From a virus, in IMG/VR virus record IMGVR_UViG_3300027608_002862, positions 1 to 64,000 of that record: 64,000 bases of DNA; one strand, written 5' to 3'. The notes below the pieces were generated by a model that worked only from the letters and a program-made list of their open reading frames with translations, was not told where the DNA came from and searched no databases. Positions 4,107-40,677 of this stretch are shown here, one piece after another (position 1 is the first letter of the stretch; the number at the start of each line of letters is the position of its first letter). The position numbers and the translations under genes were made by a program.

Positions 4107-4177
4107 ATATGAAAGCCTATCAATTCATTGTAGCAATTCTTATTGTTGTATTTGTATTGATTGAAGTTTTCATGTAA

Positions 4178-4531
4178 GGAATTGTTGTAATCCCTTCAAA
4201 GTGAAGGCATTCTGGACGCGGGTTCGACTCCCGCCTCGTCCACCTAAGCATACTCCGAACCGAGTATTCTGGTAGCAAGGCTTTAGTGCCGAGTGTGCTT
4301 AGTTGGGCGAGCCATGGTTTCGACAGGGTGAGATAATAGAGACGGCAACACGGTAGGCGATGACCGTTAATCAAGCAAATAAACGTAAATGCAAACGCAG
4401 ATACATTTGACTTCAGTGCAATGAGCTTCACTGGTAACACCGTTCGCGGTGCTGCTAATGAAAGCAGATTTGCCCTAGCTGCCTAAAAAACAGCGGTCCG
4501 GGGTAGGACATACCTTGTAACCTAAACCACC
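4178..4531 (+). ncRNA. ssrA: Transfer-messenger RNA, circularly permuted two-piece form
   Basis: The gene order is reversed relative to standard tmRNA: the 3' (acceptor) part comes first, then the 5' (coding) part. T-arm 4218-4234 (GCGGG TTCGACT CCCGC) and 3' acceptor strand CTCGTCC 4235-4241 with discriminator A4242 pair with the 5' strand GGGCGAG at 4305-4311. The third pair is G·U, the alanine identity element. Helix H2 forms between CAGGGTG 4324-4330 and CATTCTG 4208-4214. A tag frame ends ANESRFALAA then TAA 4484-4486, and the stop sits in the loop of hairpin GCTG/CAGC (4478-4481 / 4491-4494), as in H5. Outer boundaries are estimates. It rescues stalled ribosomes and tags peptides for ClpXP-type proteases. 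CCA is not fully encoded (CCT follows A4242). Confidence 0.93.
4245..4301 (+). other. Intervening segment of the permuted tmRNA, with closing 11-bp stem
   Basis: Between the mature acceptor end and the mature 5' end, TAAGCATACTC (4245-4255) pairs with GAGTGTGCTTA (4291-4301) with a single wobble pair. This extends the acceptor stem in the precursor and would hold both mature ends for cleavage. It is expected to be removed, leaving two RNA pieces. Confidence 0.85.
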
Positions 4532-4560
4532 AAAAGCGGCTATTCGTAGCCGCTTTTTCT
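4532..4560 (+). terminator. Rho-independent terminator of tmRNA
   Basis: Stem GCGGCTA / TAGCCGC (4536-4542, 4547-4553) with a TTCG tetraloop, preceded by AAAA and followed by TTTTTCTT. Confidence 0.95.
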
Positions 4561-4589
4561 TGACATGCATAGCAGAAATACTATATACT
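4560..4589 (+). promoter_or_regulatory. Sigma-70-type promoter for the outer-membrane protein gene
   Basis: TTGACA at 4560-4565 and TATACT at 4584-4589 with an 18-base spacer, about 44 bases before the ATG at 4633. It starts at the end of the tmRNA terminator, so the next gene is an independent unit. Confidence 0.75.
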
Positions 4590-13921: not shown

Positions 13922-15826
13922 ATGTCTAAGATCATCGGTATTGACCTCGGCACCACCAACTCATGCGTGGCTGTTATCGAGAACGGAATTCCCAAAGTTA
14001 TTGAAAACAACGAAGGTGCTAGAACTACACCTAGTATCGTGGCATATGCCAACGACGAAGTGTTAGTCGGTGCATCAGCCAAGCGTCAGGCAGTAACTAA
14101 TCCAAAAAACACAATCTACGCCAGCAAGAGATTGATTGGTCGCAAGTTCAAAGAACAGGCCATACAAAAAGATCTTGACTTGATGCCATATGAAATCATG
14201 GAAGCCAGTAATGGTGATGCATGGGTACGAGCCGCAGGCAAAGAACTAGCACCCCCACAGATTTCCGCAGAAGTTCTGCGTAAAATGAAAAAGACCGCAG
14301 AAGATTATCTTGGAACCACAGTCACGCAGGCAGTGATCACTGTACCGGCCTATTTCAATGACAGCCAAAGACAAGCTACCAAGGATGCTGGCAAGATCGC
14401 TGGGCTAGAAGTTCTACGTATTATCAACGAACCTACCGCGGCTGCACTGAGCTATGGTGTAGACAAACAGGACAAGGCAGACAGAAAAATTGCTGTCTAC
14501 GATCTAGGTGGTGGTACCTTTGATGTGTCTATAATCGAAATTGCTAACGTTGACGGAGAAAAGCAGATTGAAGTATTGAGTACCAATGGAGATACATTCT
14601 TAGGCGGTGAAGACTTTGATCAACGCATCATGGACTATTTGGTAGAAGAGTTCAAGAAAGATCAGGGTGTGGATCTGACTAAAGATATGTTGGCGTTACA
14701 GAGACTTAAAGAATCAGCAGAAAAAGCCAAGATTGAACTTTCAAGTTCTGCACAGACTGATGTGAATCTGCCTTATATCACTGCAGATGCCAGCGGTCCA
14801 CGTCACATGAACATCAAGATCACTCGCAGCAAACTAGAAAGTTTGGTTGCTGAATTGATAACACGCTCTATAGAACCCTGCAAGACTGCTATGAAAGATG
14901 CAGGGGTCACTGCTGCTGACATAGATGAAGTTATCCTAGTGGGTGGAATGACACGTATGCCTAAGGTGCAAGAAGCTGTGGAAGCACTGTTTGGTAAAGC
15001 ACCTCGCAGAGATGTGAACCCAGACGAAGCAGTGGCTGTAGGTGCTGCCATACAGGGTGCAGTGTTGGGTGGTGATCGTAAAGATGTATTGTTATTGGAC
15101 GTGACTCCGTTGAGCCTTGGTATTGAAACACTGGGCGGTGTGATGACGAAAATCATACAGAAAAACACCACTATCCCTACCAAAGGACAACAGACATTCT
15201 CCACAGCAGACGACAATCAACCTGCAGTGACCATCAAGGTGTTCCAAGGTGAGCGTGAACTGGTGCAGCATAACAAATTGCTAGGTGAATTTAATCTAGA
15301 AGGTATCGCACCTGCTCGCAGAGGCCAGCCCCAGATCGAAGTCACATTTGATATTGATGCTAATGGTATCATGCATATCTCTGCCAAAGACAAAAGCACA
15401 GGCAAAGAAAATAAAATCACTATCAAATCCAACAGTGGGCTCAGCGATGCAGAAATACAGGCCATGATCAAAGATGCAGAACTCAATGCTGAAGCAGACA
15501 AGAAAGCTCGTGAATTGATCGATGTGAAAAATTCTGCAGAAGCACAGATCCATGAAGTGAAAAAAGATCTCGAAGAATTCCGCAGTGACCTCACTGATGC
15601 GGAAATTACAGAACTTGAAACTGTGATCAAAGAAGTAGAAGAAGCAGTCAAAGGTGATGACAAAGAAAAAATCACCGAAGCACTCAACAAAGTTTTCCCT
15701 GCAATGAAAACATTGCTGGAAAAAAGGCAGGCCAAAGATCAAGCACAAGCACAAGCTGATGCAGGATCGATGCCTGGCCAAGATGATGTAGTTGATGCTA
15801 CCTTCACAGAGAAGAAAGCAGACTAA
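13922..15826 (+). CDS. dnaK: DnaK (Hsp70 chaperone)
   Basis: 634 residues, full length. Nucleotide-binding domain motifs [22 protein letters not shown] and VGGMTRMP are intact, followed by the substrate domain and lid, ending [14 protein letters not shown], which differs slightly from the bacterial EEVKDKK tail. It uses ATP to fold or hold client proteins. No DnaJ or GrpE is seen here, so host partners are needed. SD AAAGGAGA. A complete hsp70 gene in a phage is rare; with hsp20 directly downstream it forms a chaperone pair. Confidence 0.97.
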
Positions 15827-15882
15827 TCATATAGGGGTACTTTCGAGGCCTCTAATTGTTCTTACTTTATAAGGAGACTATT

Positions 15883-16317
15883 ATGAACAATCAATTAGCT
15901 AGAATAGACGCTCTAAGCAGAGCACTTGTGGGATTTGATACCATGTTTGATCAAATGGAACGCAGATTTGCCAACAGTGTATCAAACAACTATCCGCCAC
16001 ACAACATCATTAAACTAGACGAAAACGAATACGCCATTCAATTGGCAGTGACTGGTTTCGATAAGACCGAGATCTCAGTGACTGTTGAAAACAATGTGCT
16101 GATCGTCAAGGGTGAAAGCCAGACCACAGATTATGCGGCAGAGCAGTATCTGCATCGCAGCCTTGCAACTCGTGATTTTATCAAAGAATTTCCTTTGGCC
16201 GAACACATTGAAGTTGTGGGTGCGGAAACCAAGAATGGCATGCTGACTGTGAAGTTGATCAGAGACATTCCAGAATCAGCTAAACCCAAGGTCATTGACA
16301 TTGTTGATGTGAAGTAG
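15883..16317 (+). CDS. Small heat-shock protein (IbpA/Hsp20 family)
   Basis: 144 residues from the ATG at 15883, which has AAGGAGA upstream. Alpha-crystallin domain of IbpA type: FDTMFDQMERRF at the start, EYAIQLAVTGF, then NGMLTVKLIRDIPE. It binds unfolding proteins without ATP and hands them to DnaK. Its leader (CTTACTTTATAAGGAGA) resembles that of dnaK (CTTACTTTAAAGGAGA), suggesting shared translation control or duplication. Hsp20 genes are known from T4-like cyanophages. Confidence 0.95.
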   Translation: MNNQLARIDALSRALVGFDTMFDQMERRFANSVSNNYPPHNIIKLDENEYAIQLAVTGFDKTEISVTVENNVLIVKGESQTTDYAAEQYLHRSLATRDFIKEFPLAEHIEVVGAETKNGMLTVKLIRDIPESAKPKVIDIVDVK

Positions 16318-16323
16318 TATAAT

Positions 16324-16347
16324 ACAAGAGAGGGCAACCTCTCTTGT
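16324..16347 (+). other. 10-bp perfect hairpin with GCAA tetraloop
   Basis: ACAAGAGAGG / CCTCTCTTGT closed by GCAA, without a T-run. It is followed by TAAATACAG. It could be an RNA-stabilising or processing element, or a factor-assisted stop between hsp20 and clpS. Confidence 0.75.
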
Positions 16348-16375
16348 TAAATACAGATATAAACTAGGATTCGAA

Positions 16376-16675
16376 ATGTCTACAGAAATCGAAGTAAAAG
16401 AAAAAACCTCAGTTCAATTAGCTCCCCCAGCTTTGTGGAAGGTGATATTTCTCAATGATGATCAAACACCCATGGAATTAGTTATAGAACTGCTCACAGG
16501 CATTTTCAAACACACAGAATCCAAAGCCAAAGACATCACTCTGGAGATACACGAAACTGGTAGCTGTGTAGTAGGCATATATCCTTTTGAAATCGCAGAA
16601 CAAAAAGGTATTGAAGCCACTACCGTTGCAAGACAAAATGGTTCGCCATTGCGAATCACCGTGGAGCAGGAATGA
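16376..16675 (+). CDS. clpS: ClpS adaptor protein
   Basis: 99 residues, usual length. LNDDQTPMELVIELL is the ClpS signature with the Asp pair that holds the N-degron amino group, followed by EIHETGSCVVGIYPFEIAEQK. ClpS delivers N-end-rule substrates to ClpAP. A phage copy could redirect host proteolysis; a ClpP-like protease gene is at 35020-35595. It overlaps the heme oxygenase start (ATGA), so they share a transcript. Confidence 0.93.
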   Translation: MSTEIEVKEKTSVQLAPPALWKVIFLNDDQTPMELVIELLTGIFKHTESKAKDITLEIHETGSCVVGIYPFEIAEQKGIEATTVARQNGSPLRITVEQE

Positions 16676-17232
16676 GCCTAAGAGACATCACCAAAGACCT
16701 GCACACAGATGCAGAACGCTCAGAGTTTGCCAAGAAATTACTCAGCGGTAATATTGCTGTAGAAGATTATGCCAACTACCTATATCAGATGGTGTTGATC
16801 TATAATCCTATTGAGATGGGTAATAGATTGCAAGGTAATTTTGCTAACCTTCCTGACATAGAAAGAACCTGGGCTATCTATCAGGATTTCGTTGAACTAG
16901 CAGGCAAGGATCACAGTTACACATGGTTGCCTAGCACAGTGGCCTATCACCATTATCTTCTAGAACTGTTACACGATCCTGCCCGTAAGCATCTAATCAA
17001 AGCACATTTATACTGCCGACACATGGGCGATCTTTATGGTGGACAGATTTTGGCCAAACGTGTGCCGGGTCAGGGTAGATTTTATAAATTTAAAGATCCA
17101 GAACGACTCAAAGAACAGATTCGTGCAGAGCTCACAGACGATCTAGGAGATGAAGCTCGTGTGGCCTTTGAATGGGCCATAAAAATAATGCGAGATCTCA
17201 ACAATGAGCCAAGTGTGGAACACGCTGATTGA
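16672..17232 (+). CDS. ho1: Heme oxygenase (biliverdin-producing)
   Basis: 186 residues. Proximal heme ligand H11 in KDLHTDAER and the distal-helix motif GDLYGGQ (119-125) are present, with the overall length of bacterial/plant-type HO. It opens heme to biliverdin IX-alpha, CO and iron using a ferredoxin-type donor. The downstream overlapping gene is a bilin reductase that would use the biliverdin, so the two form a pathway as in cyanophages. Confidence 0.93.
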   Translation: MSLRDITKDLHTDAERSEFAKKLLSGNIAVEDYANYLYQMVLIYNPIEMGNRLQGNFANLPDIERTWAIYQDFVELAGKDHSYTWLPSTVAYHHYLLELLHDPARKHLIKAHLYCRHMGDLYGGQILAKRVPGQGRFYKFKDPERLKEQIRAELTDDLGDEARVAFEWAIKIMRDLNNEPSVEHAD

Positions 17233-17884
17233 AATTCAGCAGCTACTAGAAACTAAATTCAATCAAACCGGAGTAGAAGTTCATGAACCTGGCATGGAAA
17301 GGTTCAACCAACCTGGTTGGGTAAACCGTGTATGGCGCAGCGATCGATACCGCAGAGCTCACGTAGATGTAGTAGATGCCAGAGATACCAAAAGTTTGTG
17401 GATGATGCACTGCTGCATTTTTCCACACATTACAGATCCTAGCCCTATCTATGGATTTGATGTTATAGCAGGAAAAAACAAGATCACAGGCTGTTTTCAC
17501 GATTACTCCAAAGCAGGGGATCCTCATCATCCTATGATGCAGTGGTTCGCAGACTATGTGAGCCAATTGGAATGGCGAAGAGTCCGAGAACTACCCGAGT
17601 GGGCTACCAACATTTTCAGCCCCAGCATGGTGGCAGCGGGTAATGTGCAAAATGAGGAAGAACTAGCTCAGATCATAGCCATGGCCAAGGACACCATAGA
17701 ACACTATCTCAGCACGGTAGGAGAAACATTAGGTCAGGCTGAAAACACCACGGCAGCACAGAATTATTACGCACAGAATCAGAAGCAAAACCCGCATACA
17801 CCGCGTGTAATGGTGAGTTTAGGGCTGAGTGAGGACGATGTGCAGCATTTTATACAGGATTGCCTGTTCCCAGAAATACGATAA
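17204..17884 (+). CDS. Ferredoxin-dependent bilin reductase (PcyA/PcyX-like)
   Basis: 226 residues, normal for the family. The block from HVDVVD (H53, D55) through MMHCCIFPHI (H69) to PSPIYGFDVIAG (D86) lines up by eye with the substrate pocket of FDBRs, where D86 takes the place of the catalytic Asp of PcyA. The enzyme reduces biliverdin to a phytobilin with ferredoxin electrons. It overlaps the heme oxygenase gene by 29 bases. Phage FDBRs (PebS, PcyX) are known; PcyX was described from viral metagenomes outside cyanobacteria. Which bilin is made cannot be read from sequence. Confidence 0.85.
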   Translation: MSQVWNTLIEIQQLLETKFNQTGVEVHEPGMERFNQPGWVNRVWRSDRYRRAHVDVVDARDTKSLWMMHCCIFPHITDPSPIYGFDVIAGKNKITGCFHDYSKAGDPHHPMMQWFADYVSQLEWRRVRELPEWATNIFSPSMVAAGNVQNEEELAQIIAMAKDTIEHYLSTVGETLGQAENTTAAQNYYAQNQKQNPHTPRVMVSLGLSEDDVQHFIQDCLFPEIR

Positions 17885-19075: not shown

Positions 19076-19522
19076 ATGTGTAGGAAAGCCATAGTGTCAG
19101 CAGCACTGATCTTTGCATGTGCTCACGTACAGGCTGAGTTAGTGCATCAATTCCAAAGTCCAGCCTTTATTCCAGGCAATGGATATAGTTCACACGTACT
19201 AAGTATCTATCAACTAGAAGAAAATCGTAAGAAAGAAATAAAAGCTGAGGAATCAGCGGCATTACTCAAAGCAGAAACTGCCGCCAAGCAGACTAATTTA
19301 TCAAAATTCCTAGTGAACGTAGAAGCACGTATCTACGCACAACTATCCAAACAACTAGCTGATCAGATGTTCACTGACAGTGGTGCCACTAGTGGCACAA
19401 TGGATTTCCAAGGCACGAATATAAGTTGGGTCAAAACAGGAACAGATGTTACACTGACCATTATCGAAGCCAATGGCAGCCGCACTGAAATCACTGTACC
19501 TATAGCGAGCTTTGCATTCTAA
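19076..19522 (+). CDS. csgF: CsgF-like curli assembly protein
   Basis: 148 residues with a signal peptide ending VQA (residue 20). The mature start ELVHQFQSPAF.PGNG matches the CsgF N-terminus, which plugs into the CsgG pore, and GTDVTLTIIEANGSRTEITV matches its C-terminal strand region; the middle helix is Lys/Glu rich. It overlaps csgG by one base (TAATG). SD GGGAGCGAA. CsgF and CsgG form the outer-membrane curli exit gate. Confidence 0.82.
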   Translation: MCRKAIVSAALIFACAHVQAELVHQFQSPAFIPGNGYSSHVLSIYQLEENRKKEIKAEESAALLKAETAAKQTNLSKFLVNVEARIYAQLSKQLADQMFTDSGATSGTMDFQGTNISWVKTGTDVTLTIIEANGSRTEITVPIASFAF

Positions 19523-20769
19523 TGAAACGACTGATGTTATCATTCTTGATGGTCAGCACATTATCAGGCTGTGCTACCATACACATGGACACCGCCAAGG
19601 AAGAACCTGTGGCGCTGAAACCCCGAGAAAATCTGACCATAAAGATTCCATCGTTGGATGGACCACCTATCGCTATTGCTGTTTATGGCTTTCAAGACAA
19701 GACCGGCCAAATGAAGCCCAATGATAGATTGGCTGTGTTTTCAAAAGCCGTGACGCAGGGTGCCGAAGTGTTCCTAATCAAATCACTTCAAGACTCAAAG
19801 AATTGGTTTAAAGTAGTAGAGCGTGTGGGCCTAGACAACCTTATCAAAGAACGTCAATTGATTCGCAACCAACGAGAAGTCTACGAAGGCAAAGATGCCA
19901 AGGCCTTGAAACCAATGACGGTGGCTGGGGTGATGATAGAAGGTGGCATCATCGGCTACGACAGTAATATACGCAGTGGCGGTAATGGTGCTAGGTTTCT
20001 AGGCATTGGAGGCAGTCAACAGTATCGCGTAGACGAAATTGTTATCAGCCTAAGATTGATCAGTGTGAACAGTGGAGAAGTATTATTGACCAACGCTGTG
20101 AGCAAAACCATCTACAGTACACAGCATAACGTAGGTGTTCTACGGTTTGTAGATGCAGGAACCAAAGCATTAGAATTAGAAAATGGTCAGGCCTTGAATG
20201 AACCTACTACCTATGCAGTGCGTGTGGCCATTGAACAGGCGGTCTATGACATGATCGTGGAAGGTGAAAAGAAAGGTCTATGGAGATACAAGGTAGAAAA
20301 ACCTGCGGTCATAGAAGAGAAAAAAGATCAAGCAGTTGTGCCACAGGCCCCGATCTCTCCGCAACCACCTATTACTGTTGAGCCTGTGAAACAAGAAAAT
20401 AAAGATCCAGAACAAAAAGTTGAGACTGCGATTGAAAAAATCTCAAGAGTAGTTCCTGTACAACCTCCGCAGATTCCAGTAATAGAGAAAAAAGCAGATG
20501 TTGAGGAAAAAGTAGATCAACCAACGGGTGTGATTACCCAACCAGATAGTGGTAAAACTAGTACACCATTATGGAGTCCTAGATATCTAAAACAAGATTC
20601 GTTTGTGTATAAAGAACCCGATGAAAAAAGCCAACGTACTTGGCAGTTGAAAAAAGGAACAGAATTTAATATCATTTCTCCAGGACCGGAGGGATGGCAT
20701 TATGTAACGGACGCGGAGAAGCGTAAAGGGTATGTGCGAACTGACGTGCTTTCAGAACACAAACCATAA
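19522..20769 (+). CDS. csgG: CsgG-like curli secretion pore with C-terminal SH3-like extension
   Basis: 415 residues, longer than CsgG (about 277). Lipobox LSGC (Cys 17). The core shows PPIAIAVYGFQDKTGQMKP, VTQGAEVFLIKSL, VERVGLDNLIKERQLIRNQRE and a membrane-hairpin region QYRVDEIVISLRLI, all typical of CsgG, which makes a nonameric outer-membrane channel. From about residue 255 a Pro/Glu/Lys linker leads to an SH3b-like domain (residues about 350-412, ending EGWHYVTDAEKRKGYVRTDVL) that may bind peptidoglycan. csgG-csgF pairs have been reported in marine phages. Confidence 0.9.
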   Translation: MKRLMLSFLMVSTLSGCATIHMDTAKEEPVALKPRENLTIKIPSLDGPPIAIAVYGFQDKTGQMKPNDRLAVFSKAVTQGAEVFLIKSLQDSKNWFKVVERVGLDNLIKERQLIRNQREVYEGKDAKALKPMTVAGVMIEGGIIGYDSNIRSGGNGARFLGIGGSQQYRVDEIVISLRLISVNSGEVLLTNAVSKTIYSTQHNVGVLRFVDAGTKALELENGQALNEPTTYAVRVAIEQAVYDMIVEGEKKGLWRYKVEKPAVIEEKKDQAVVPQAPISPQPPITVEPVKQENKDPEQKVETAIEKISRVVPVQPPQIPVIEKKADVEEKVDQPTGVITQPDSGKTSTPLWSPRYLKQDSFVYKEPDEKSQRTWQLKKGTEFNIISPGPEGWHYVTDAEKRKGYVRTDVLSEHKP

Positions 20770-20851
20770 TGAGTCAAGCATTGGAGACAATTTAACAACA
20801 CTAAAAATATGGATGCATTATAAACCTTAACTTGCATCTGGAGCGAATATA

Positions 20852-21523
20852 ATGAAAAAAAGAATCACAGGCGGTGGCGGGTTGTCGAGAAAATTACTTG
20901 CAAGTCTAATGATGGCTGGAACGCTGTCATCGGGAGCGTGGGCCAACGATGTTTATGTTGAACAAATTGGTGACAATTCAACGGTTTCTATCACCCAAAC
21001 AGGTGCTGGTAATCTAGTGAACGGTAATGTTGATGGTACAGGTAATACAGACGACGCCGCTATAATTAGGGGTGACCTCAATGATGTAACCATAAATCAA
21101 ATTGGTGCCAGTAACACCGTAAAGATGATAATCAACAACGAATCTAACGGCACTGGTTCAACAGTAGTGATATCCGCAGACGGCAGCAACAACAATCAAA
21201 CTGTTGGTTGCGGCACAGCATTGAGTTCGACATGTAATGCAAGCATTATTAGATCGGAAATTATCGGTAACAATAACAATACAGTTCAAACCCTCAGTGG
21301 CGGTGTGGTACAGAGTAAGATTGCTATCACCGGTAATTACAACAATGTGACGCATACTGCAAGTGGCGCAGGGTCACACAACGGTGAGATCACTGTTACT
21401 GGCAGCGGTACTATCAGTATTGCTAATGCAGTGACACTAACACAAAGTGGAGCGATGACTAAAAATGCGGTTATTACCAGCAACGGTTCTAATAACAACG
21501 TTATCGTTACTCAGTCCGATTAA
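20852..21523 (+). CDS. Curlin-repeat (CsgA/CsgB-like) secreted protein
   Basis: 223 residues. A long signal peptide ends AWA (about residue 31). The mature sequence is built of degenerate curlin-type repeats: VEQIGDNSTVSITQTGAGN, NQIGASNTV, GSNNNQTV, GNNNNTVQ, GNYNNVT, NGSNNNVIVTQ. These form stacked beta-arches in amyloid curli. Two Cys (VGCGTALSSTC) are unusual for curlin. SD TGGAGCGAA. It is the natural cargo for the CsgFG pore upstream. Whether it polymerises is unknown. Confidence 0.85.
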   Translation: MKKRITGGGGLSRKLLASLMMAGTLSSGAWANDVYVEQIGDNSTVSITQTGAGNLVNGNVDGTGNTDDAAIIRGDLNDVTINQIGASNTVKMIINNESNGTGSTVVISADGSNNNQTVGCGTALSSTCNASIIRSEIIGNNNNTVQTLSGGVVQSKIAITGNYNNVTHTASGAGSHNGEITVTGSGTISIANAVTLTQSGAMTKNAVITSNGSNNNVIVTQSD

Positions 21524-22568
21524 CAGTTGGGCTACTGTTGGTAAAGTTACTGAACAGACCGGACCGACTGAGATAATAAGAGACAAGAAGAGCATATCTT
21601 CTAGCCTTAACACGGCCGTGAAAATGAATGATGCGGTCAGCACAGCCAAGGCCCGGGCAGAGCTGACCTTTGAGGACGCGACCAAAGTAAAACTCACAGA
21701 GCATTCAAAAATGATCATAGATGATTTTGTCTACGATCCCAAGAAAGGTTCTGGCAAATTGGCCATCAACATGGCCTTGGGCACAGCTAGGTATGCCAGT
21801 GGACAAATCGCCAAAAATAATCCTCAGCAGGTGGCAATTAAAACTCCTACGGCTACCATCGCTGTTCGAGGTACAGACTTTTCTATGACCGTAGATGAAC
21901 TAGGGCGCAGCTTGGTCATGCTGCTGCCCAGTTGTGATGCCCGAGGAGGTTGTGTTACTGGAGTAATCGAAGTCAGTAGCCTAGCAGGGGTAGTGGTGTT
22001 AGATGTGCCGTTCCAGGCCACGCTGGTAAACAGCGCCTATCAACGTCCTAGCGACCCTGTGGTAATTAAAATTGATCAGGCTAATATCAACAACATGCTG
22101 ATCATAAGTAAACCACAAGAAATACAAGAAGATGTTCGAGCAGGAATAAACAAGAAAGAAAAAGGATTATTAGATTTCAATTTACTAGATATAGACCTGT
22201 TAAAATATAATGCACTAGAAGAAAACAAATTAGATGACAACAAGGCCTTGGATCGAAACGACCTTAACACTGACCTATTGGCCTACAACGCATTGAACGA
22301 ATTAGACAGACAGAACGCATCATTGCTCAACGATGAACTAGACATACCAGTGTTGCCGGGGTATGCATCTAACAAGTCATTGGGCCTGTTATATTATTTC
22401 AATGACGATCAAAGCAAAGTCACATTGTACAAAGCTGGAACACACAACGCCACTGCCACATTTGATACCACAAAGAATGTTACCTTTACTCTGATACAAG
22501 ACGGCCAGACCATAATACAAAATGTCAATAAAGGAAGTACCAGCACAATAATCGTTACACAGAATTAA
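21465..22568 (+). CDS. FecR-domain secreted protein
   Basis: 367 residues. The ATG at 21465 gives a clear signal peptide ending SWA (residue 23); it lies 59 bases inside the curlin gene in another frame. FecR domain: VGKVTEQTGPTEIIR, FEDATKVKLTEHS, then TPTATIAVRGTDF. The second half has repeated LLDFNLLDIDLLKYNAL-type Leu/Asp-rich units. Outer-membrane FecR-domain proteins often partner with surface fibres. Its position right after the curlin gene suggests an accessory of that system. Confidence 0.78.
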   Translation: MRLLPATVLITTLSLLSPINSWATVGKVTEQTGPTEIIRDKKSISSSLNTAVKMNDAVSTAKARAELTFEDATKVKLTEHSKMIIDDFVYDPKKGSGKLAINMALGTARYASGQIAKNNPQQVAIKTPTATIAVRGTDFSMTVDELGRSLVMLLPSCDARGGCVTGVIEVSSLAGVVVLDVPFQATLVNSAYQRPSDPVVIKIDQANINNMLIISKPQEIQEDVRAGINKKEKGLLDFNLLDIDLLKYNALEENKLDDNKALDRNDLNTDLLAYNALNELDRQNASLLNDELDIPVLPGYASNKSLGLLYYFNDDQSKVTLYKAGTHNATATFDTTKNVTFTLIQDGQTIIQNVNKGSTSTIIVTQN

Positions 22569-22648: not shown

Positions 22649-24697
22649 ATGAAAAAACAATTAATTGCAACAATAGTTGCCGCTATGCTATCAGCGTCGG
22701 CATTGGCAGGAAATGAAATATTAGTAAATGAATTTATAAAAGCAGGAGTGAATGAGTCCACAGGTACGCTGGGAAGTGGAGGAAACACCAATCCAGGACT
22801 ACAGTACGATAACACTGGTACTGGAACATTTAACTCTGCATACGATTATCTAACACCAGGTTCGCCCTATGAGGGTTGGGCTGTTCGTATAGATAACGCA
22901 GACGGAACGAAGTTCAAGTTATACGGTAACAACAATGCTGGATTCCAAATGGACGGTAACATTCCTGTAACTGGAGCATGGGTTGGCACACCTACTGCGG
23001 CATCTGCGATATGGGCAGGTACCGCAACAGAATTCGGTATTAGACATACCTACAGTTTGCCATCAGCACAGCGTTATTTAGACATCACCACACGTATTGA
23101 GGCTACCGCCGCAATGCCGCATTTGTACTTTGGTCGTTACATTGATCCAGATGCTGTGGCAGCACCTGGCGACAGTTCAGCAACTGACAACGTTCGTGGC
23201 TACGGTATTATTCCAAAGACCAACGTTGTATTCTCAGAAGCAACTGTGAGTCGTTATGCTCTTGGTTTATACTCAGCACAAGTTGGAACTGTTAATACAA
23301 GTATACAAGGTTGGACAAGTGATCCAAAGAACTACTACCTAAATACAAACGGTCGTGCTGATGTTAGCAACGGTGATGACACTATAGGTATTGCATTCTA
23401 TGCAGCCAATGTTGCAGTAGGCGATATCCTAACATACAACTATGCTTACATCTTTGGACCAAGTGCGTTTACTGCGGCCAACTATGCTATAACAGGTGGG
23501 GCTGGCGGCGGCACAGCAGGTACAAGTAGTTTTGGTACACTGGTAGACGTTGGCAGTGCCACTGATGCGGGATCAGGTACTACCACGACTCCAACTATCA
23601 CTGGTACATCAACTGCGACCATTACTGTGAGTGATACCACTGTGGTGAACACAAGCCTTCCAGTCATCACTGCTAGCCTTGCTCACCACGACGCCAGCGA
23701 AGCCAGTGGTAAGCAGACTATTGCTCGCGAGACCACAACCAATGTGACCACGCCATATACACGTTCTGTTGTCACGCTGGTTAGAACCACCAATACATGG
23801 AGTGATGGTACGACTACAACATCCGACAGCGCCACTACAACTAGCGATACGCTGATCAACGATGTGACCACTACTGTAGCCAATGATTCATTCAGCGGTC
23901 GTGTCGACCAAATGTCGTATCTATCTAATTTGAATCAACAATTAGATCGTGGCCTAAACATGGATGCTTTCCGTCAAGACGGTTACACAGATCAAGATAA
24001 AAAAGTCACGGTATATGTGAATGCCAGTGGTGCGAGATCAAACATAGATAATGGTTACAACGCTAAGAGTCAAATCTATGGCCTAGGTGTCGAAAAAGAA
24101 ATCAACCCAAACTGGAGATTAGGTGCTCAATACAATCGTGTGAATACTACCATGGACGGCACAGATTCTAAAACAGCACAAGACAAAAATCACGTTGGTA
24201 TGTTCTCTGTGTATACAGCAGAAAATGATGTTAAGATTGTCAACAACTTAGGTTACTCTAATAATGCAGTCAAAGGCAATCGCACCATAGAAAATGTTTT
24301 TAATAACAGTCATAGTACCAACGGCGAAAATGTTTGGTTGAACAACAGGATCTATGCTCCAGAGACCAATGGATTACGTCCATACGCCGGTGTAACTGTT
24401 GGACGTTCAACTATAGGCGGCTACACAGAAGCAGGTGATATTCAGAGTGCTAGAACTGTGGCTAAAATCGTAGACAACTACACATACGGTGAAGCCGGTG
24501 TACGTTATGAAAAAGCCATCAACAAGTTTCGTTTAATCGGTGACGTCGGCACAACAACAGATTCCGTAACCACAGGTTCAGCCACAGTTGCGTATTCTCC
24601 AACAAAAATCGGCACTATTGCGTTAACAGCAGCGACACAACAAGGTAATAATATCAATACTAACACAATTTCACTTAACGGCATAATTAGATTCTAA
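22649..24697 (+). CDS. Autotransporter-like outer-membrane protein
   Basis: 682 residues. Signal peptide MKKQLIATIVAAMLSASALA. Passenger region (21-280) is Gly/Thr/Asn-rich beta-type sequence, then a Thr/Ser/Val low-complexity linker (about 290-420, TTTTPTITGTSTATITV). The last about 270 residues (from QMSYLSNLNQQLDRGLN) form a barrel ending NTISLNGIIRF, the terminal-Phe signature of autotransporters. SD GGGGAGCGAA. It is encoded directly after the curli-like module and could display an adhesin or shield the surface. Confidence 0.8.
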   Translation: MKKQLIATIVAAMLSASALAGNEILVNEFIKAGVNESTGTLGSGGNTNPGLQYDNTGTGTFNSAYDYLTPGSPYEGWAVRIDNADGTKFKLYGNNNAGFQMDGNIPVTGAWVGTPTAASAIWAGTATEFGIRHTYSLPSAQRYLDITTRIEATAAMPHLYFGRYIDPDAVAAPGDSSATDNVRGYGIIPKTNVVFSEATVSRYALGLYSAQVGTVNTSIQGWTSDPKNYYLNTNGRADVSNGDDTIGIAFYAANVAVGDILTYNYAYIFGPSAFTAANYAITGGAGGGTAGTSSFGTLVDVGSATDAGSGTTTTPTITGTSTATITVSDTTVVNTSLPVITASLAHHDASEASGKQTIARETTTNVTTPYTRSVVTLVRTTNTWSDGTTTTSDSATTTSDTLINDVTTTVANDSFSGRVDQMSYLSNLNQQLDRGLNMDAFRQDGYTDQDKKVTVYVNASGARSNIDNGYNAKSQIYGLGVEKEINPNWRLGAQYNRVNTTMDGTDSKTAQDKNHVGMFSVYTAENDVKIVNNLGYSNNAVKGNRTIENVFNNSHSTNGENVWLNNRIYAPETNGLRPYAGVTVGRSTIGGYTEAGDIQSARTVAKIVDNYTYGEAGVRYEKAINKFRLIGDVGTTTDSVTTGSATVAYSPTKIGTIALTAATQQGNNINTNTISLNGIIRF

Positions 24698-24725
24698 TAA
24701 TAACAATAGGGCATAGCCCACCTAC

Positions 24726-24750
24726 AAAGTCCGCTGCGGCGGACTTTTTT
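24726..24750 (+). terminator. Rho-independent terminator
   Basis: AAGTCCGC / GCGGACTT (24727-24734, 24739-24746), loop TGCG, then TTTT; ends the secreted-protein block. Confidence 0.93.
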
Positions 24751-24777
24751 ATTAAATATAGTTTTAAGGAGTAAGCC

Positions 24778-25113
24778 ATGCGTATATTAGCATTGGCGTT
24801 CCTATTCTGCCTAATTAGCTCTATAGCCGACGCCCAGGAATCAGTACCAGCATTCACAGATACTGTAATGAAGGATACTTCGTTAATTGCGTTAGGTCAG
24901 CAGGTATGGGACAGTCAGTGTCGACATTGCCACGGCAACAGTGCGTATCCCGGCAAGGCGCCCAAACTCAAATCTTCCAGTTACCAACCTGACTTTGTCT
25001 ACGATCGAGTGACCAATGGATTTCGCAAAATGCCTGCTTGGCGAGATATCTTTAACGAAAGGCAGCGTGTTGGTGTAACTGTATACATAATGAGTTCTGA
25101 ATTTTCACCTTGA
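24778..25113 (+). CDS. Periplasmic c-type cytochrome
   Basis: 111 residues. Signal peptide ends near IADA (residue 19). Single heme motif CRHCH (C48, C51, H52) and a likely axial Met85 in RKMPAW give a class I cytochrome c fold of minimal size. It carries electrons in the periplasm. Heme attachment needs the host Ccm machinery. SD AAGGAG. With pqqA in the same phage, a role as electron acceptor for a PQQ enzyme is possible but unproven. Confidence 0.9.
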   Translation: MRILALAFLFCLISSIADAQESVPAFTDTVMKDTSLIALGQQVWDSQCRHCHGNSAYPGKAPKLKSSSYQPDFVYDRVTNGFRKMPAWRDIFNERQRVGVTVYIMSSEFSP

Positions 25114-25157
25114 AATTTCAAATATATTCTGGTAAATATATGTTTAAGGAGCCGGTA

Positions 25158-25451
25158 ATGCGTTCACTGCTACTGGCGTTCCTCGTCTGCTCATCCAGCC
25201 TAGTTAACGCCCAATTTCAATACGATTATCCATTGTTGTGCGACCGCACTGCAAAGATCATACAAAGTCTAGGAGACAACTGGAAAGAAACGCTGACTTG
25301 GAGTGGAAAACACACCAGTGACAACAGTGTTTATAGTCTGTGGGTCAATGAAAAAGAAGGAACATGGACATTATTAAAGATGACATCAGAAGTTTCATGT
25401 ATACTTGGAACGGGCGAGGAATCTAAAATTACACTAGGTACACCTATATAA
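25158..25451 (+). CDS. Small secreted protein
   Basis: 97 residues from the ATG at 25158 (AAGGAGCCGGTA upstream); the earlier start would place the signal peptide internally. Signal peptide MRSLLLAFLVCSSSLVNA is nearly the same as that of the cytochrome gene, and both genes share the leader TAAATATA..TTTAAGGAG, so these upstream parts look duplicated. The mature part holds two Cys and YSLWVNEKEGTWTLLKM; not recognised. Confidence 0.7.
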   Translation: MRSLLLAFLVCSSSLVNAQFQYDYPLLCDRTAKIIQSLGDNWKETLTWSGKHTSDNSVYSLWVNEKEGTWTLLKMTSEVSCILGTGEESKITLGTPI

Positions 25452-25468
25452 ACTAACCAAGGAACACA

Positions 25469-25624
25469 ATGACTGACGACGATTTCAAAAGACATTTACA
25501 CCGCCAACTAGAAGAAGATAAGAAAAACCACGGACAACTGACCAATAGAATATTTGCCAAAGCTAGAACAAAACCCGCAAATAAATACAGTCATGAGAAA
25601 TCAACTAAAAAAAATCCTTACTAA
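25469..25624 (+). CDS. Small charged protein
   Basis: 51 residues, rich in Lys, Asp, His and Arg (MTDDDFKRHLHRQLEEDKKN). AAGGAACACA precedes the ATG. It overlaps the start of the cyclase gene by 32 bases. No family recognised; real-gene status rests on the SD and operon position. Confidence 0.45.
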   Translation: MTDDDFKRHLHRQLEEDKKNHGQLTNRIFAKARTKPANKYSHEKSTKKNPY

Positions 25625-27644
25625 TCCGTGGACAGCACTGCTGACATTGGCACTTATTATAAGTATAAGAATCGCTGATCCTGTCTTTGTAGAGAGCATA
25701 AGACTACGCTACTTTGATACACTGATCACTGCCAAAGAAATCACAGACAACAACATCTATACGGTCAACATAGATGAAAGTGCTTTGGACAAATATGGGC
25801 AATGGCCATTACCGAGAGAAGAGTATGCGAAAATTATTAAAGATCTCTATGATCGCGGCGCTGGCCTTGTTGTGCTTAACATTATCATGGCTGAGCCTGA
25901 TCGTACTGGTGGTGGTGATGTTCTCGCAAATGCTCTAAAAAAGTATCCTGTGATACTAGGGTCAGTGCCTAGTGGAAAAACCAAAAACACGCCACGCAAG
26001 CCGGGTAGTGCAGTTATAGGACCTGAGTGGCAGGATCAAATTGTGCAGTATCCTGGATTAATTGCCAATATATCGAAATTAGAAAACAGCGCAGCGGGCA
26101 TAGGTATTGTTTCAACCCTGCCAGAAGTTGATGGAGTGAATCGGCGCATACCATTAGTGGTCAGTGTCAACGATAATTTGTATCCCAGTCTAAGTTTAGA
26201 AACTCTACGTGCTGCTGCAGGCGATTCTACCTTCCAGATCAAACTAAACGAATACGGTGTTGAGAAAATGCGTATTCCAAAGTTTGGTCCTATCAGCACA
26301 GATCCATTAGGACGTATATGGATTGACTGGAGTCAGCAGAATAAATCAGTGAGTATAACTAACTTGCCTAAAGACTTTGGAGGAGCTGTCGTTATAGTAG
26401 GTCCGACAGCCGCAGGAATCAGTAATCCCTTGCCAACCAGCATAGGCGCAGTGTTCCCGCATGATGTACAGGCCAGTGTGATTGCCACTATGGCAAATGG
26501 AGTGGTTATAGAAAGACCCGACTATGCAGACGGCGTAGAAATTATTGCAATTCTAGCTGCGGGATTATTATTATTGTTTTTAACGAGGTGGGTATATGCG
26601 GGACTTGCGAGTGTTATCATTATATGTATTGGCGTGGTCTTTGGCAGTCACTACGCTTTCTCTAATTTTCTATTCTTATTTGATGCTACTGCCATTCTTG
26701 TTGGCACAGTCTTGGTCGCTTTGCATGCCTATGGTGTCAAGTTTGTAAGCGAGTTCTTACAGAAGCAGGCCATTAAGAAACAGTTTGAGGGATATGCCAG
26801 TCCCACAGTGGTCAAACTCTTGCAGGAAAATCCAGACATTATCAAGAACGGAACCAAGCGTGAAGTATCTATAGTGTTTTCCGACCTACGTGGCTTTACC
26901 CCTCTCGGTGAAAGTTTTGGAGATGATGTCAAAGGACTAACAGCAGTGATGAATGGTTACATGGATGCCATCACTCAGCCTGTGTTAGATGCTGATGGTA
27001 TGATCATCAAATATATTGGTGATGCCAGCATGCACATCCATAACGCACCTATAGATGATCCTCACCACGCCAAGACCGCAGTGGCCACTGGACTCAAGAT
27101 GTTGAAGGCTGTAAAAGAATTCAGCATCAAGTTAGAAGCCACAGGACGTCCAGGAGTCAAAATGGGCGCAGGTATCAATACTGGTCTAGGTTATATAGGA
27201 GAGATGGGATCAACTCGACGCCATTCGTATGATGTCTTAGGTGATGCAGTTTCCACAGCCGCACGTATTGAAAGCAAATGCAAAGAATACGGGTGTGTGC
27301 TATTAGTCGGCGGTGCCACAGTAGAACAGTGTGGTGATGATTTCTTCTTCCTAAAAGTAGATGACCTAGCAGTCAAGGGCAAGACAGTAGGGGTAGCTAT
27401 TTACACAGTGTTGGACGATGTCGCTGCTGACTATCACGTGTCTAAGAAAATACACAATGCCATGCATGGTGCATACAGATCACAGAATTTCAGCACAGCG
27501 ATTAGCATGTGCAAACAGCTGAGAGATCAATTCGACGGTAGATTAACTGGCTATTATGATATGTGGATAGAGCGATGTGAGTTCCAATTGACACAGAAAT
27601 TACCTGCAGATTGGAATGGTGTTTTTATAGCTACCAGCAAATAG
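25593..27644 (+). CDS. CHASE2-domain class III nucleotidyl cyclase
   Basis: 683 residues from the ATG at 25593 (a longer form lacks an SD). One N-terminal membrane segment, a periplasmic CHASE2 domain (about 25-300; VNIDESALDKYGQWPLPREEYAK, then NIIMAEPDRTGGGDV), three membrane segments (about 305-385), then a class III cyclase catalytic domain with VFSDLRGFTPLGE (metal Asp), KYIGDASMHIHNAP and DVLGDAVSTAARIE. It would make cAMP or cGMP in response to an envelope signal. Such a receptor is unusual in a phage. Confidence 0.9.
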   Translation: MRNQLKKILTNPWTALLTLALIISIRIADPVFVESIRLRYFDTLITAKEITDNNIYTVNIDESALDKYGQWPLPREEYAKIIKDLYDRGAGLVVLNIIMAEPDRTGGGDVLANALKKYPVILGSVPSGKTKNTPRKPGSAVIGPEWQDQIVQYPGLIANISKLENSAAGIGIVSTLPEVDGVNRRIPLVVSVNDNLYPSLSLETLRAAAGDSTFQIKLNEYGVEKMRIPKFGPISTDPLGRIWIDWSQQNKSVSITNLPKDFGGAVVIVGPTAAGISNPLPTSIGAVFPHDVQASVIATMANGVVIERPDYADGVEIIAILAAGLLLLFLTRWVYAGLASVIIICIGVVFGSHYAFSNFLFLFDATAILVGTVLVALHAYGVKFVSEFLQKQAIKKQFEGYASPTVVKLLQENPDIIKNGTKREVSIVFSDLRGFTPLGESFGDDVKGLTAVMNGYMDAITQPVLDADGMIIKYIGDASMHIHNAPIDDPHHAKTAVATGLKMLKAVKEFSIKLEATGRPGVKMGAGINTGLGYIGEMGSTRRHSYDVLGDAVSTAARIESKCKEYGCVLLVGGATVEQCGDDFFFLKVDDLAVKGKTVGVAIYTVLDDVAADYHVSKKIHNAMHGAYRSQNFSTAISMCKQLRDQFDGRLTGYYDMWIERCEFQLTQKLPADWNGVFIATSK

Positions 27645-36738: not shown

Positions 36739-36814
36739 GCCTCGTTCATATAACGGTCTATTATGCCCGCCTGTCTAGCGGAACACAGGGGTTCGACTCC
36801 CCTACGAGGCGCCA
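36739..36814 (+). tRNA. tRNA-Asp(GTC)
   Basis: Acceptor GCCTCGT/ACGAGGC, anticodon loop CTGTCTA, T-loop TTCGACT, CCA encoded. Confidence 0.93.
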
Positions 36815-36820
36815 GTTTAT

Positions 36821-36896
36821 TCCCCAGTAGCACAGCGGTAGTTGCACTTGACTGTTAATCAAGGTGTCCGTGGTTCGATCCCACGCTGGGGAGCCA
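36821..36896 (+). tRNA. tRNA-Asn(GTT)
   Basis: Acceptor TCCCCAG/CTGGGGA, anticodon stem-loop CTTGA CTGTTAA TCAAG, CCA encoded. Confidence 0.96.
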
Positions 36897-36903
36897 ATAT
36901 TAT

Positions 36904-36978
36904 GCACGGTTCGTCTATCGGTTAGGACGCTGCCCTTTCAAGGCGGAAAGACGAGTTCGATTCTCGTACCGTGTACCA
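36904..36978 (+). tRNA. tRNA-Glu(TTC)
   Basis: Acceptor GCACGGT/ACCGTGT, anticodon loop CTTTCAA, T-loop TTCGATT, CCA encoded. Confidence 0.95.
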
Positions 36979-36984
36979 TATAAT

Positions 36985-37058
36985 GCGGGTATGATGTAAT
37001 GGTAACCTGAAACCTTGCCAAGGTTTATTCGCGAGTTCGATTCTCGCTACCCGCTCCA
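36985..37058 (+). tRNA. tRNA-Gly(GCC)
   Basis: Acceptor GCGGGTA/TACCCGC, anticodon loop TTGCCAA, CCA encoded. Confidence 0.95.
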
Positions 37059-37063
37059 AGAAT

Positions 37064-37137
37064 TACTCACTGATGTAATGGCAGCATGACAGTCTCCAAA
37101 ACTGTTCGTCGGGGTTCGAGTCCCTGGTGGGTAGCCA
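37064..37137 (+). tRNA. tRNA-Trp(CCA)
   Basis: Acceptor TACTCAC/GTGGGTA, anticodon stem-loop ACAGT CTCCAAA ACTGT, CCA encoded. Confidence 0.95.
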
Positions 37138-37143
37138 ATCTAT

Positions 37144-37221
37144 AGTGCGGTGGCAGAGAGGTCCAATGCAAGAGTCTGCAAAACTCTAAAACCGTGAGTT
37201 CAAATCTCACCCGCACTTCCA
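37144..37221 (+). tRNA. tRNA-Cys(GCA)
   Basis: Acceptor AGTGCGG/CCGCACT, anticodon stem-loop AGAGT CTGCAAA ACTCT, T-loop TTCAAAT, CCA encoded. Confidence 0.95.
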
Positions 37222-37226
37222 ATAAT

Positions 37227-37318
37227 GCCAGCGAGACTTGGTAGTCAGAGAGGTTTTATAAACCTTTTAGCGCCAGATTAGCGTTCTTGAGAGGGTTCGA
37301 TTCCCTCCGCTGGTACCA
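37227..37318 (+). tRNA. Class II tRNA with anticodon TAT (identity uncertain)
   Basis: Acceptor GCCAGCG/CGCTGGT, T-arm GAGGG TTCGATT CCCTC and a 24-base variable region with its own stem (GCGC/GCGT). Stem GAGGT/ACCTT leaves a 7-base loop TTTATAA, so the anticodon reads TAT (Ile, AUA). Long variable arms normally mark Leu, Ser or Tyr, which makes this pairing odd. Confidence 0.75.
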
Positions 37319-37324
37319 CGTAAT

Positions 37325-37405
37325 GCCCCTGTGGCCAAATTGGTAAAGGCAGCTCTCTCAAAAGGAGTGTTATGTATCCCGGTTCGAGTCCGGGCAGGGG
37401 TACCA
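37325..37405 (+). tRNA. tRNA-Leu(CAA)
   Basis: Acceptor GCCCCTG/CAGGGGT, anticodon loop CTCAAAA. The variable region is short (9 bases) for Leu; the D-arm resembles that of phage T4 tRNA-Leu. CCA encoded. Confidence 0.88.
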
Positions 37406-37413
37406 AAGTTTAT

Positions 37414-37503
37414 GGAAGTGTGGCAGAGTCCGGTTTATTGCACCTGTCTTGAAAACAGACGGCTCGAAAGGGTCCGTGAGTTCGAATCTCACCGCTTCCA
37501 CCA
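37414..37503 (+). tRNA. tRNA-Ser(TGA)
   Basis: Acceptor GGAAGTG/CGCTTCC, anticodon stem-loop CTGT CTTGAAA ACAG, long variable arm, CCA encoded. Confidence 0.95.
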
Positions 37504-37507
37504 ATTT

Positions 37508-37581
37508 TCCCGGATAGTTAAATGGTATAACAATCGGCTGATAACCGGTCATTACAAGTTCGATTCTTGTTCTGGGAACCA
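37508..37581 (+). tRNA. tRNA-Ile(GAT)
   Basis: Acceptor TCCCGGA/TCTGGGA, anticodon stem-loop TCGG CTGATAA CCGG, CCA encoded. Confidence 0.93.
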
Positions 37582-37681
37582 AGTTTAGTATAGCAACAGC
37601 AAAAATCCAATTTCACTTTTAATGAAAAAAGATGCTATCCTGTTTTATTAAACTCCAGTAGCCTAATCATTTAAATAAACA

Positions 37682-39139
37682 ATGCATAAATGTTTATTAT
37701 TCAATGTTTCAACTAACCAGTTAGGAAGGAATTTAGGTGTATACAGAATAGCACACTATCTTAGAGAACATGATTGGGACTCTGAGGTTATCGATTATAC
37801 TTTATATTGGACTTTAGATGAGTTAAAAGAACTGTCTAGATCAAGAATCGATAAAGACACAAAATTTATAGGATTTGGTCACATGTTTTCGGTGTGGAGT
37901 GTAGAATTAGAAAACTTTACAGAATGGTTGAAGATTGAGTATCCTGGGGTTGTTTTAATATCAGGCTCAGGAGTTGCTCCACAGTTCAAATCAAAGTGTA
38001 TAGATTATTACATTCAAGGTTTCGGCGAAAACGCTTTGTTAGTTTTGCTAAAATGGCTTTTTAGCAACGGAGAACTTCCAAAGTTTTCTATTTTCAATAA
38101 AAAGTTAATCAACGGAAATGAAATGTATCCTTCGTTTCCAATGAAAAGTTTAATGGTAAAGTATCAAGACCGGGACTACATTAGTCCCGACGAGTGGTTA
38201 GGAATTGAGTTTGCTCGAGGCTGTAAGTTTAGATGTGCATTTTGTAACTTTCCTGTACTAGGTGTAAAAGGAGATTACAGCAGAGATGCATTAGATTACT
38301 ACATACAAGTTATGGATGCCTATGATAGGTTTGGAGTTACTAACTACTATGTATCCGACGAAACATTTAATGATCGAACAGAAAAAATAACCAAATTTGC
38401 TGATGTAACACAACTATTGCCATTTCGTCCTTGGTTTAGTGGGTTTATTAGGGCAGACTTAATGATAGCTAGAAAAGAAGAAAAAGAAGAATTAGCTAGA
38501 TTAGGATTTCTTGGTCACCATTATGGTATAGAAAGTTTTAACAAAGAGTCAGTTAAAGTTATCGGTAAGGGCATGGACCCTGACAGGATAAAAGCAGGAT
38601 TGATAGATAGTAAAAACTATTTTATGAACCGGGGATTGTACCGGGGAAATATAAGTTTTATTATAGGTCTACCAGGGGATACTGTAGAACAAATAGAAAG
38701 AACAATTGACTGGTTAAAAGAAAACTGGCGAGGACAATCATTTCTTCCATTTGTTTTAGAAATACCAGCGGGAGAGTTTGACACACAATCTAAAATTAGT
38801 ATAGACTATAAAAAATATGGTTATACCGTGATGGATGATGCGATCATACGATCTAACGAGGACCAGGATGCTAAGGTTGCTTCTACAGTATTACATTGGC
38901 AAAACAAGTTTATGAATATAAATCAAGCAACGGATCTACAAGAAAAAATGTGGCGTGAGCTGTTTAAGAAAGAAAATGGTTTTACATTTAACTGTTGGGC
39001 TCTTGCATCGATAGGGATTGACGGTGGTCTAATCAACAGACTAAATGAAACTGCTAAATTCAGCCAGGGTGACCTTGCGGTTGCACTGCCAAAAATACAA
39101 TCTTACAAAGATAAAAAGTTAAGTACTCAGAAATATTAA
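37682..39139 (+). CDS. B12-binding-type radical-SAM protein
   Basis: 485 residues. N-terminal part (1-140) has a cobalamin-binding-like alpha/beta layout without a clear DxHxxG. Radical-SAM cluster CKFRCAFC (C181, C185, C188), then GHHYGIESFN and IGLPGDTVEQIE typical of the barrel end. It cleaves SAM to start radical chemistry; substrate unknown. It interrupts the tRNA array, is more AT-rich than its surroundings, and is a paralogue of the gene at the left window edge, suggesting insertion as a mobile cargo gene. Confidence 0.88.
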   Translation: MHKCLLFNVSTNQLGRNLGVYRIAHYLREHDWDSEVIDYTLYWTLDELKELSRSRIDKDTKFIGFGHMFSVWSVELENFTEWLKIEYPGVVLISGSGVAPQFKSKCIDYYIQGFGENALLVLLKWLFSNGELPKFSIFNKKLINGNEMYPSFPMKSLMVKYQDRDYISPDEWLGIEFARGCKFRCAFCNFPVLGVKGDYSRDALDYYIQVMDAYDRFGVTNYYVSDETFNDRTEKITKFADVTQLLPFRPWFSGFIRADLMIARKEEKEELARLGFLGHHYGIESFNKESVKVIGKGMDPDRIKAGLIDSKNYFMNRGLYRGNISFIIGLPGDTVEQIERTIDWLKENWRGQSFLPFVLEIPAGEFDTQSKISIDYKKYGYTVMDDAIIRSNEDQDAKVASTVLHWQNKFMNINQATDLQEKMWRELFKKENGFTFNCWALASIGIDGGLINRLNETAKFSQGDLAVALPKIQSYKDKKLSTQKY

Positions 39140-39234
39140 CAACGGAGAATGACATGAAACGAGGTAAACTCTAGTGTCATCCTAGACCCCGTATGGTCCT
39201 GGATGGCACGTAAAAGAAAATATTTACGATCCAT

Positions 39235-39309
39235 CCCTTCGTGGCGCAATGGTAGCGCAACGGACTCTTAATCCGCTGGTTGGCAGTTCAAGTCTGCCCG
39301 GAGGGACCA
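39235..39309 (+). tRNA. tRNA-Lys(CTT)
   Basis: Acceptor CCCTTCG/CGGAGGG, anticodon stem-loop CGGA CTCTTAA TCCG, CCA encoded. A strong hairpin GTGTCATCC / GGATGGCAC precedes it (about 39172-39210). Confidence 0.95.
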
Positions 39310-39312
39310 TAT

Positions 39313-39387
39313 GGGGGTATAATTCAAAGGCTAGAATAGCCGGCTTTTAACCGGTCTATCAGGGTTCGAGTCCCTGTGCCCCTACCA
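39313..39387 (+). tRNA. tRNA-Lys(TTT)
   Basis: Acceptor GGGGGTA/TGCCCCT, anticodon stem-loop CCGG CTTTTAA CCGG, CCA encoded; only 3 bases from the previous tRNA. Confidence 0.95.
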
Positions 39388-39445
39388 TATAAAAACACAT
39401 TACTAAGAGTCCAGGTTCAGAGCGTGGCATAGTGTGTTTCTATAT

Positions 39446-39520
39446 GGTAATGTAGCATAACGGTAGTGCAACACCTTCATACGGTGCCCAGTGAAAGTTC
39501 GACTCTTTCCATTACCACCA
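39446..39520 (+). tRNA. tRNA-Met or tRNA-Ile2 (CAT)
   Basis: Acceptor GGTAATG/CATTACC with a normal 1-72 pair, so not an initiator. Anticodon stem-loop CACC TTCATAC GGTG. Elongator Met versus lysidine-modified Ile cannot be settled by eye. CCA encoded. Confidence 0.93.
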
Positions 39521-39526
39521 AAATTT

Positions 39527-39601
39527 GGGGGAAGCCGAGGACGGCGGTGGGTCCTTGCAAGACTCATGACTACAAGGGTTCGATACCCTGGTCCTCCACC
39601 A
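39527..39601 (+). tRNA. tRNA-Ala(TGC), copy 1
   Basis: Acceptor GGGGGAA/GTCCTCC with G3·U70, the Ala identity pair; last pair A-G mismatched. Anticodon stem-loop GGGTC CTTGCAA GACTC. CCA encoded. Confidence 0.9.
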
Positions 39602-39606
39602 ATTAT

Positions 39607-39682
39607 CTCTCTAAAGTGTTATCTGGTTGCATCCGCGGTTTGGGGCCGTGTGGTCTAGGTTCGAATCCTAGTAGGGAGACCA
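39607..39682 (+). tRNA. tRNA-Pro(TGG)
   Basis: Acceptor CTCTCTA/TAGGGAG, anticodon stem-loop CGCGG TTTGGGG CCGTG, CCA encoded. Confidence 0.93.
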
Positions 39683-39690
39683 GTTTCTGT

Positions 39691-39764
39691 TCGGGAATAG
39701 TGTAATGGTAACACTACAGACTTTGACTCTGTCATTCTAGGTTCGAGCCCTAGTTCCCGTGCCA
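39691..39764 (+). tRNA. tRNA-Gln(TTG)
   Basis: Acceptor TCGGGAA/TTCCCGT with an open 1-72 position, common for Gln; anticodon stem-loop CAGA CTTTGAC TCTG, CCA encoded. Confidence 0.93.
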
Positions 39765-39771
39765 ACTTTAT

Positions 39772-39846
39772 CGGGCTTTGGTGAAATGGATATCATTACG
39801 GTCTTCGAAACCGCAGGTAGAGGTTCGATTCCTCTAAGCCCGGCCA
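39772..39846 (+). tRNA. tRNA-Arg(TCG)
   Basis: Acceptor CGGGCTT/AAGCCCG, anticodon stem-loop ACGGT CTTCGAA ACCGC, CCA encoded. Confidence 0.95.
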
Positions 39847-39863
39847 TATTAAAGGAGATCAGC

Positions 39864-40067: not shown

Positions 40068-40068
40068 G

Positions 40069-40097: not shown

Positions 40098-40103
40098 GTC
40101 AAT

Positions 40104-40178: not shown

Positions 40179-40188
40179 AGGAATTATT

Positions 40189-40672: not shown

Positions 40673-40677
40673 AGAAT

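Follow-up and report, generated by a model that had tools for sequence, protein, structure and literature searches.

A viral curli-type gene cassette with a variable surface-protein slot between its FecR-domain and CHASE2 cyclase genes

The window analysed here, positions 1 to 64,000 of the 68,060-base viral record IMGVR_UViG_3300027608_002862, carries at 19076-22568 on its plus strand four tandem genes in the order CsgF, CsgG, curlin and FecR. Each of them is recognised by its family model, in agreement with the identities proposed in the first-pass annotation, whose reading as a curli-like export module holds. The CsgF homologue (148 aa, 19076-19522) is followed by the CsgG homologue (415 aa, 19522-20769), the stop of csgF overlapping the start of csgG, by a curlin-repeat protein as putative fibre subunit (223 aa, 20852-21523) and by an exported FecR-domain protein (367 aa, 21465-22568; PF04773, E 6.5e-11). 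The module reaches past the end at 22568 assigned to it earlier, up to 27644, and comprises on the same strand, within 22649-27644, an autotransporter (22649-24697), an exported cytochrome c (24778-25113; PF13442, E 1.3e-13), a small exported protein without assigned function that is found in several relatives (25110-25451) and, as final cassette gene, a CHASE2-adenylate/guanylate cyclase (25554-27644; PF05226, E 4e-38; PF00211, E 7e-18; phrog_35576, E 6e-193). Reading of the N-termini combined with a hydropathy scan places export signals on the proteins preceding the cyclase and a lipobox (LSGC) on CsgG. The cytochrome c gene, which has no BLAST match in the related loci, may be a passenger within the cassette. 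CsgE, CsgC and CsgD were not identified, with no model match for CsgE among the cassette proteins scanned, which leaves the secretion competence of the cassette open to doubt.

Upstream of these genes, at 13922-17884, lies a block encoding DnaK, Hsp20, ClpS, heme oxygenase and a ferredoxin-dependent bilin reductase, the last of which is 50% identical to its counterpart in Pelagibacter phage Mosig; many related viral contigs have the same block ahead of their curli genes. A tmRNA with an unusually long tag peptide is called at 4153-4577, while all 29 tRNA genes called by ARAGORN are plus-strand genes located at 36739-43668, where a radical SAM gene (37682-39139) is interposed. The product of 45525-46625 possesses an Mtd_N (major tropism determinant N-terminal) domain, with no reverse transcriptase among the neighbours scanned. 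The stretch from 46000 to 64000 is of lower GC content and encodes, on both strands, sugar-nucleotide enzymes, aspartyl/asparaginyl hydroxylases and several radical SAM proteins.

The CsgF match to PF10614 (E 3e-14) covers profile positions 10-132 of 132. After the Sec signal follows the conserved pore-binding segment ELVHQFQSPAF, in which, and shortly thereafter, residues F26, P29, F31, G34 and G36 are invariant across 15 phage CsgF proteins (motif F-x-x-P-x-F), with 29 invariant columns in the family alignment; the pore-plug segment on which the first-pass annotation had made its reading depend is thus conserved. The phage N-terminus aligns to that of E. coli CsgF, the direct match being weak when taken alone (E 0.28). 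CsgG (PF03783, E 2.6e-53) matches solved CsgG (6lqh) with a phmmer E of 1e-48 over residues 2-262, which correspond to the pore domain. Beyond this domain, a C-terminal extension of approximately 150 aa has at its end a bacterial SH3-like domain, whose match to SH3_4 (E 1e-4) falls slightly short of the cut-off, and such a long tail, found in 18 of 39 CsgG clusters, defines an SH3-tailed CsgG variant, the tail of which may anchor the protein to peptidoglycan.

From the window protein alone, which scores 21.5 bits against PF07012 at a cut-off of 20.7, the curlin assignment is marginal, while it is firm for the family, as 13 of 14 members match PF07012 and a 23-sequence family profile retrieves 8c50, a curlin-repeat fibril of solved structure (E 8.7e-8), as well as E. 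coli CsgA (E 0.003). The curlin repeats, whose failure to be recognised by any model would have spoken against the first-pass reading, are thus recognised. The Q-x-G-x-x-[NST] signature occurs four times in the window protein versus 0.38 times expected and the G-x-x-[NS]..Q signature three times versus 0.05, each count being equalled in none of 5000 shuffles, and the Q/G/N ladder along with two cysteines is invariant in the family. AlphaFold2, with an alignment of the window and viral-contig rows only, models the protein as an all-strand ladder (pLDDT 83.5, pTM 0.76), for which a Foldseek search of the PDB returned no significant solved match (best E 0.02).

The last 59 bases of the curlin gene (21465-21523) are also the first 59 of the FecR gene, such that part of the last curlin repeat specifies, in a different frame, the FecR signal peptide. 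This overlap, which measures about 38-107 bases when the first start codon is taken, is conserved among the loci tallied (L002, L005-L072) with the sole exception of HTVC008M (L003), where it is absent. In the FecR protein the signal peptide is immediately followed by the FecR domain, with no other Pfam domain, and a hydrophobic stretch just past the FecR domain (residues 161-188) is judged to belong to the fold and not to span the membrane. A role as anti-sigma regulator of the FecIRA type was considered and rejected, the protein being devoid of a cytoplasmic anti-sigma N-terminus and a transmembrane segment and the cassette being devoid of FecI and FecA. Equally, a curlin-like C-terminal strand common to the FecR proteins is not claimed, the curlin C-terminal HMM giving E values of 3-9 and profile comparison a probability of 2%. 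The pattern Q-x(10-13)-G-x(7-9)-Q terminates all 44 full-length FecR proteins and about 1.3% of shuffled tails, figures to be read with the pattern having been picked post hoc and the FecR sequences being mutually related.

One scan of viral contigs yielded 71 loci, which fall into 39 clusters upon clustering of CsgG at 95%. In related viral contigs of sufficient length the order CsgF-CsgG-curlin-FecR-cyclase is essentially invariant: counting only clusters whose contig reaches far enough, CsgF is located upstream of CsgG in 35/36, and curlin, FecR and the cyclase are located downstream in 27/29, 29/29 and 24/24 respectively. The exceptions (L031 and L074 for curlin, L050 for CsgF) arise from start-position cut-offs or overlaps, the genes being there. 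Comparison of the window with four relatives (L014, L008, L005 and L030) gave dN/dS values of 0.06-0.11 wherever synonymous sites were unsaturated; three FecR comparisons, one of CsgG and one of CsgF were saturated and yielded no ratio.

The gene content between FecR and the cyclase, on the other hand, differs among loci and constitutes a variable slot. It is occupied by an autotransporter in the window and in eight relatives (L012, L014, L018, L019, L022, L024, L030 and L042), by a large barrel protein in L008, L016, L025, L027 and L029, and by a curlin-repeat protein in HTVC008M, Melnitz and L041, while some loci have no surface protein or unrelated genes in the slot. With the barrel of L025, which Pfam recognises, the C-termini of the large barrel proteins match at 42-47%. 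In L031, L033, L034, L035 and L037 an autotransporter of the window type is located between csgF and csgG instead. The window protein displays the characteristics of type V secretion, a signal peptide, a conserved passenger, a C-terminal 12-stranded barrel (PF03797, E 9.8e-12) and a C-terminal Phe; AlphaFold2 models the passenger at low confidence and the barrel confidently, the latter matching the NalP translocator in a Foldseek search (E 4.5e-12, TMt 0.84). An N-terminal domain of approximately 185 aa is common to the curlin-repeat proteins of L036 and L041 and the barrel proteins of L008, L012, L016, L022 and L029 (34-45% BLAST identity, E down to 2e-39, 44 invariant columns); therefore, one domain is borne by two unrelated anchors at the same gene position. 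Further slot-protein domains are of sugar-binding type, such as F5/8C (L008, L012) and PA14 (HTVC008M). Between the window and L014 the autotransporter genes differ by a dS of 0.53 and the neighbouring genes by a dS of 1.2 or more, which suggests that the autotransporter gene alone was recently exchanged.

By identity of its components, the cassette is very probably a curli-type export system. What phages gain from curli genes is debated, with proposals ranging from lysis timing to nutrient uptake. We consider type VIII (curli) secretion for surface display on the infected cell to be a probable function, as every part has family or structure matches, gene order is essentially invariant, dN/dS is low, a domain is swapped within the slot, the slot domains are of sugar-binding type and FecR and CHASE2 cyclase genes are neighbours also in bacteria. 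The CsgG lipoprotein pore, aided by CsgF, would export the curlin-repeat protein, which would then build a surface fibre, while a second, variable surface protein would leave either on curlin repeats via the CsgG pore or, as in the window, on its own autotransporter barrel. The FecR protein, itself exported, would most likely act together with the cyclase's CHASE2 domain in the periplasm, such that the state of the envelope would be reported as cAMP. The cassette as a whole might, with chances a little short of even, represent a modular display platform, in which one adhesin-like domain is swapped, at a fixed place in the gene order, between two unrelated anchors for export, the type VIII curli fibre and the type V autotransporter barrel, and FecR reports to the CHASE2 cyclase. 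The presence of one domain on two different surface anchors in the slot points to display outside the cell as the selected function, which is directly testable. The likely gain would be that the infected cell adheres or is masked; adhesion and the blocking of other phages, among the uses initially put forward, are plausible, and we tentatively propose adhesion, masking and exclusion of other phages as the benefit for the phage. The lack of clumping in Melnitz cultures (PMC9004378) counts against surface display, as do the missing PDB match for the curlin fold and the low-confidence passenger model.

For Melnitz, a function of CsgG as a pinholin-like lysis timer or a leak in the outer membrane, with a repurposed CsgF, has been proposed (PMC9004378), based on a modelled narrowed CsgG neck and synteny with lysis-timing genes, and would be in line with the lack of a visible CsgE gate. 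A plain pore, though, requires neither curlin nor FecR, which always adjoin it under purifying selection, and CsgF retains its pore-binding segment, so that we regard this role as unlikely; the timed leak of the outer membrane suggested in the first-pass annotation is disfavoured likewise, the cargo genes being always kept and under purifying selection. The fibre genes are also left unexplained by an uptake channel, a pore that admits larger nutrients or cofactors to the infected cell, as proposed in both PMC7029224 and PMC9599517; the name FecR hints at iron, but the protein has a signal peptide and no N-terminal anti-sigma part and is not accompanied by FecI or FecA in the cassette, and this function is, if anything, still a little less probable. 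Very improbable is an assignment of the curlin-repeat and slot proteins to the virion as adhesive particle fibres instead of cell-surface products: lectin-like slot-protein domains would fit host attachment, but all of these proteins bear Sec signals and accompany an outer-membrane pore or barrel.

The FecR protein is more likely a periplasmic partner of the cyclase than an iron regulator, because it is exported without a detectable anti-sigma part and because pairs of FecR and CHASE2 cyclase genes are common in bacteria. Clusters of the two genes have been reported from Campylobacterota (PMC9239204). A bacterial collection gave 33 loci, of which six (L075-L080) contain the cassette in whole or in part; in most of the non-cassette Rhizobiales loci the FecR match is followed, after approximately 2 kb, by a CHASE2 cyclase gene, the pair in L087 overlapping by a few bases. 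Instead of the iron regulator assumed for pelagiphages (PMC9599517), the pairing suggests a signalling partner that can be put to the test.

The phage curli system itself is not new. The genes csgF and csgG were described in pelagimyophages (PMC7029224), and curlin, FecR and cyclase genes alongside them in myo- and podovirus pelagiphages (PMC9599517, published in 2022), in a study which proposed an alphaproteobacterial origin. Novelty of the linked curlin and FecR genes, as initially supposed, is thus not given, since they are published for those phages and annotated in Melnitz, whose description states that fibre genes are lacking (PMC9004378), contrary to its record MZ577097 with two annotated curlin-repeat proteins. 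None of these three papers mentions an autotransporter, and a literature search of incomplete coverage did not find the combination of curli and autotransporter. New here are the extent of the module to 27644, the variable slot with its domain swap, FecR as candidate cyclase partner and the SH3-tailed CsgG variant.

Compared with E. coli curli (csgBAC, csgDEFG), the window shares the CsgG pore, the CsgF N-terminus and the curlin repeats, but has no identified CsgE, CsgC or CsgD and additionally encodes FecR and a CHASE2 cyclase. The latter two adjoin also in the clusters of Rhizobiales and Campylobacterota (PMC9239204), although the Rhizobiales loci fetched have, unlike the window, no match to CsgG, CsgF or curlin. 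A bacterial operon in phage order (CsgF, CsgG, curlin, FecR, CHASE2 cyclase) is present on Caulobacteraceae MAG contig L077, surrounded by bacterial metabolic genes for acyl-CoA dehydrogenase and amidohydrolase; its proteins are 36-42% identical to those of the window (curlin 25%), and FecR is directly followed by the cyclase without a slot gene. This operon is in line with an origin in alphaproteobacteria, as put forward in PMC9599517. Misbinning of phage contigs may account for L075, L076, L079 and L080. Among phages, Methylophilales phage Melnitz EXVC044M has the same gene order (CsgG 48% and FecR 44% identical to the window) with a curlin-repeat protein in the slot where the window has the autotransporter, and the type VIII module of pelagiphages such as HTVC008M and the HTVC023P-type podoviruses (PMC9599517, PMC7029224) has the corresponding order CsgF-CsgG-curlin-FecR-(second curlin)-adenylate cyclase, from which the window differs in its SH3-tailed CsgG, in having a cytochrome c gene and in the autotransporter that stands where those phages have their second curlin.
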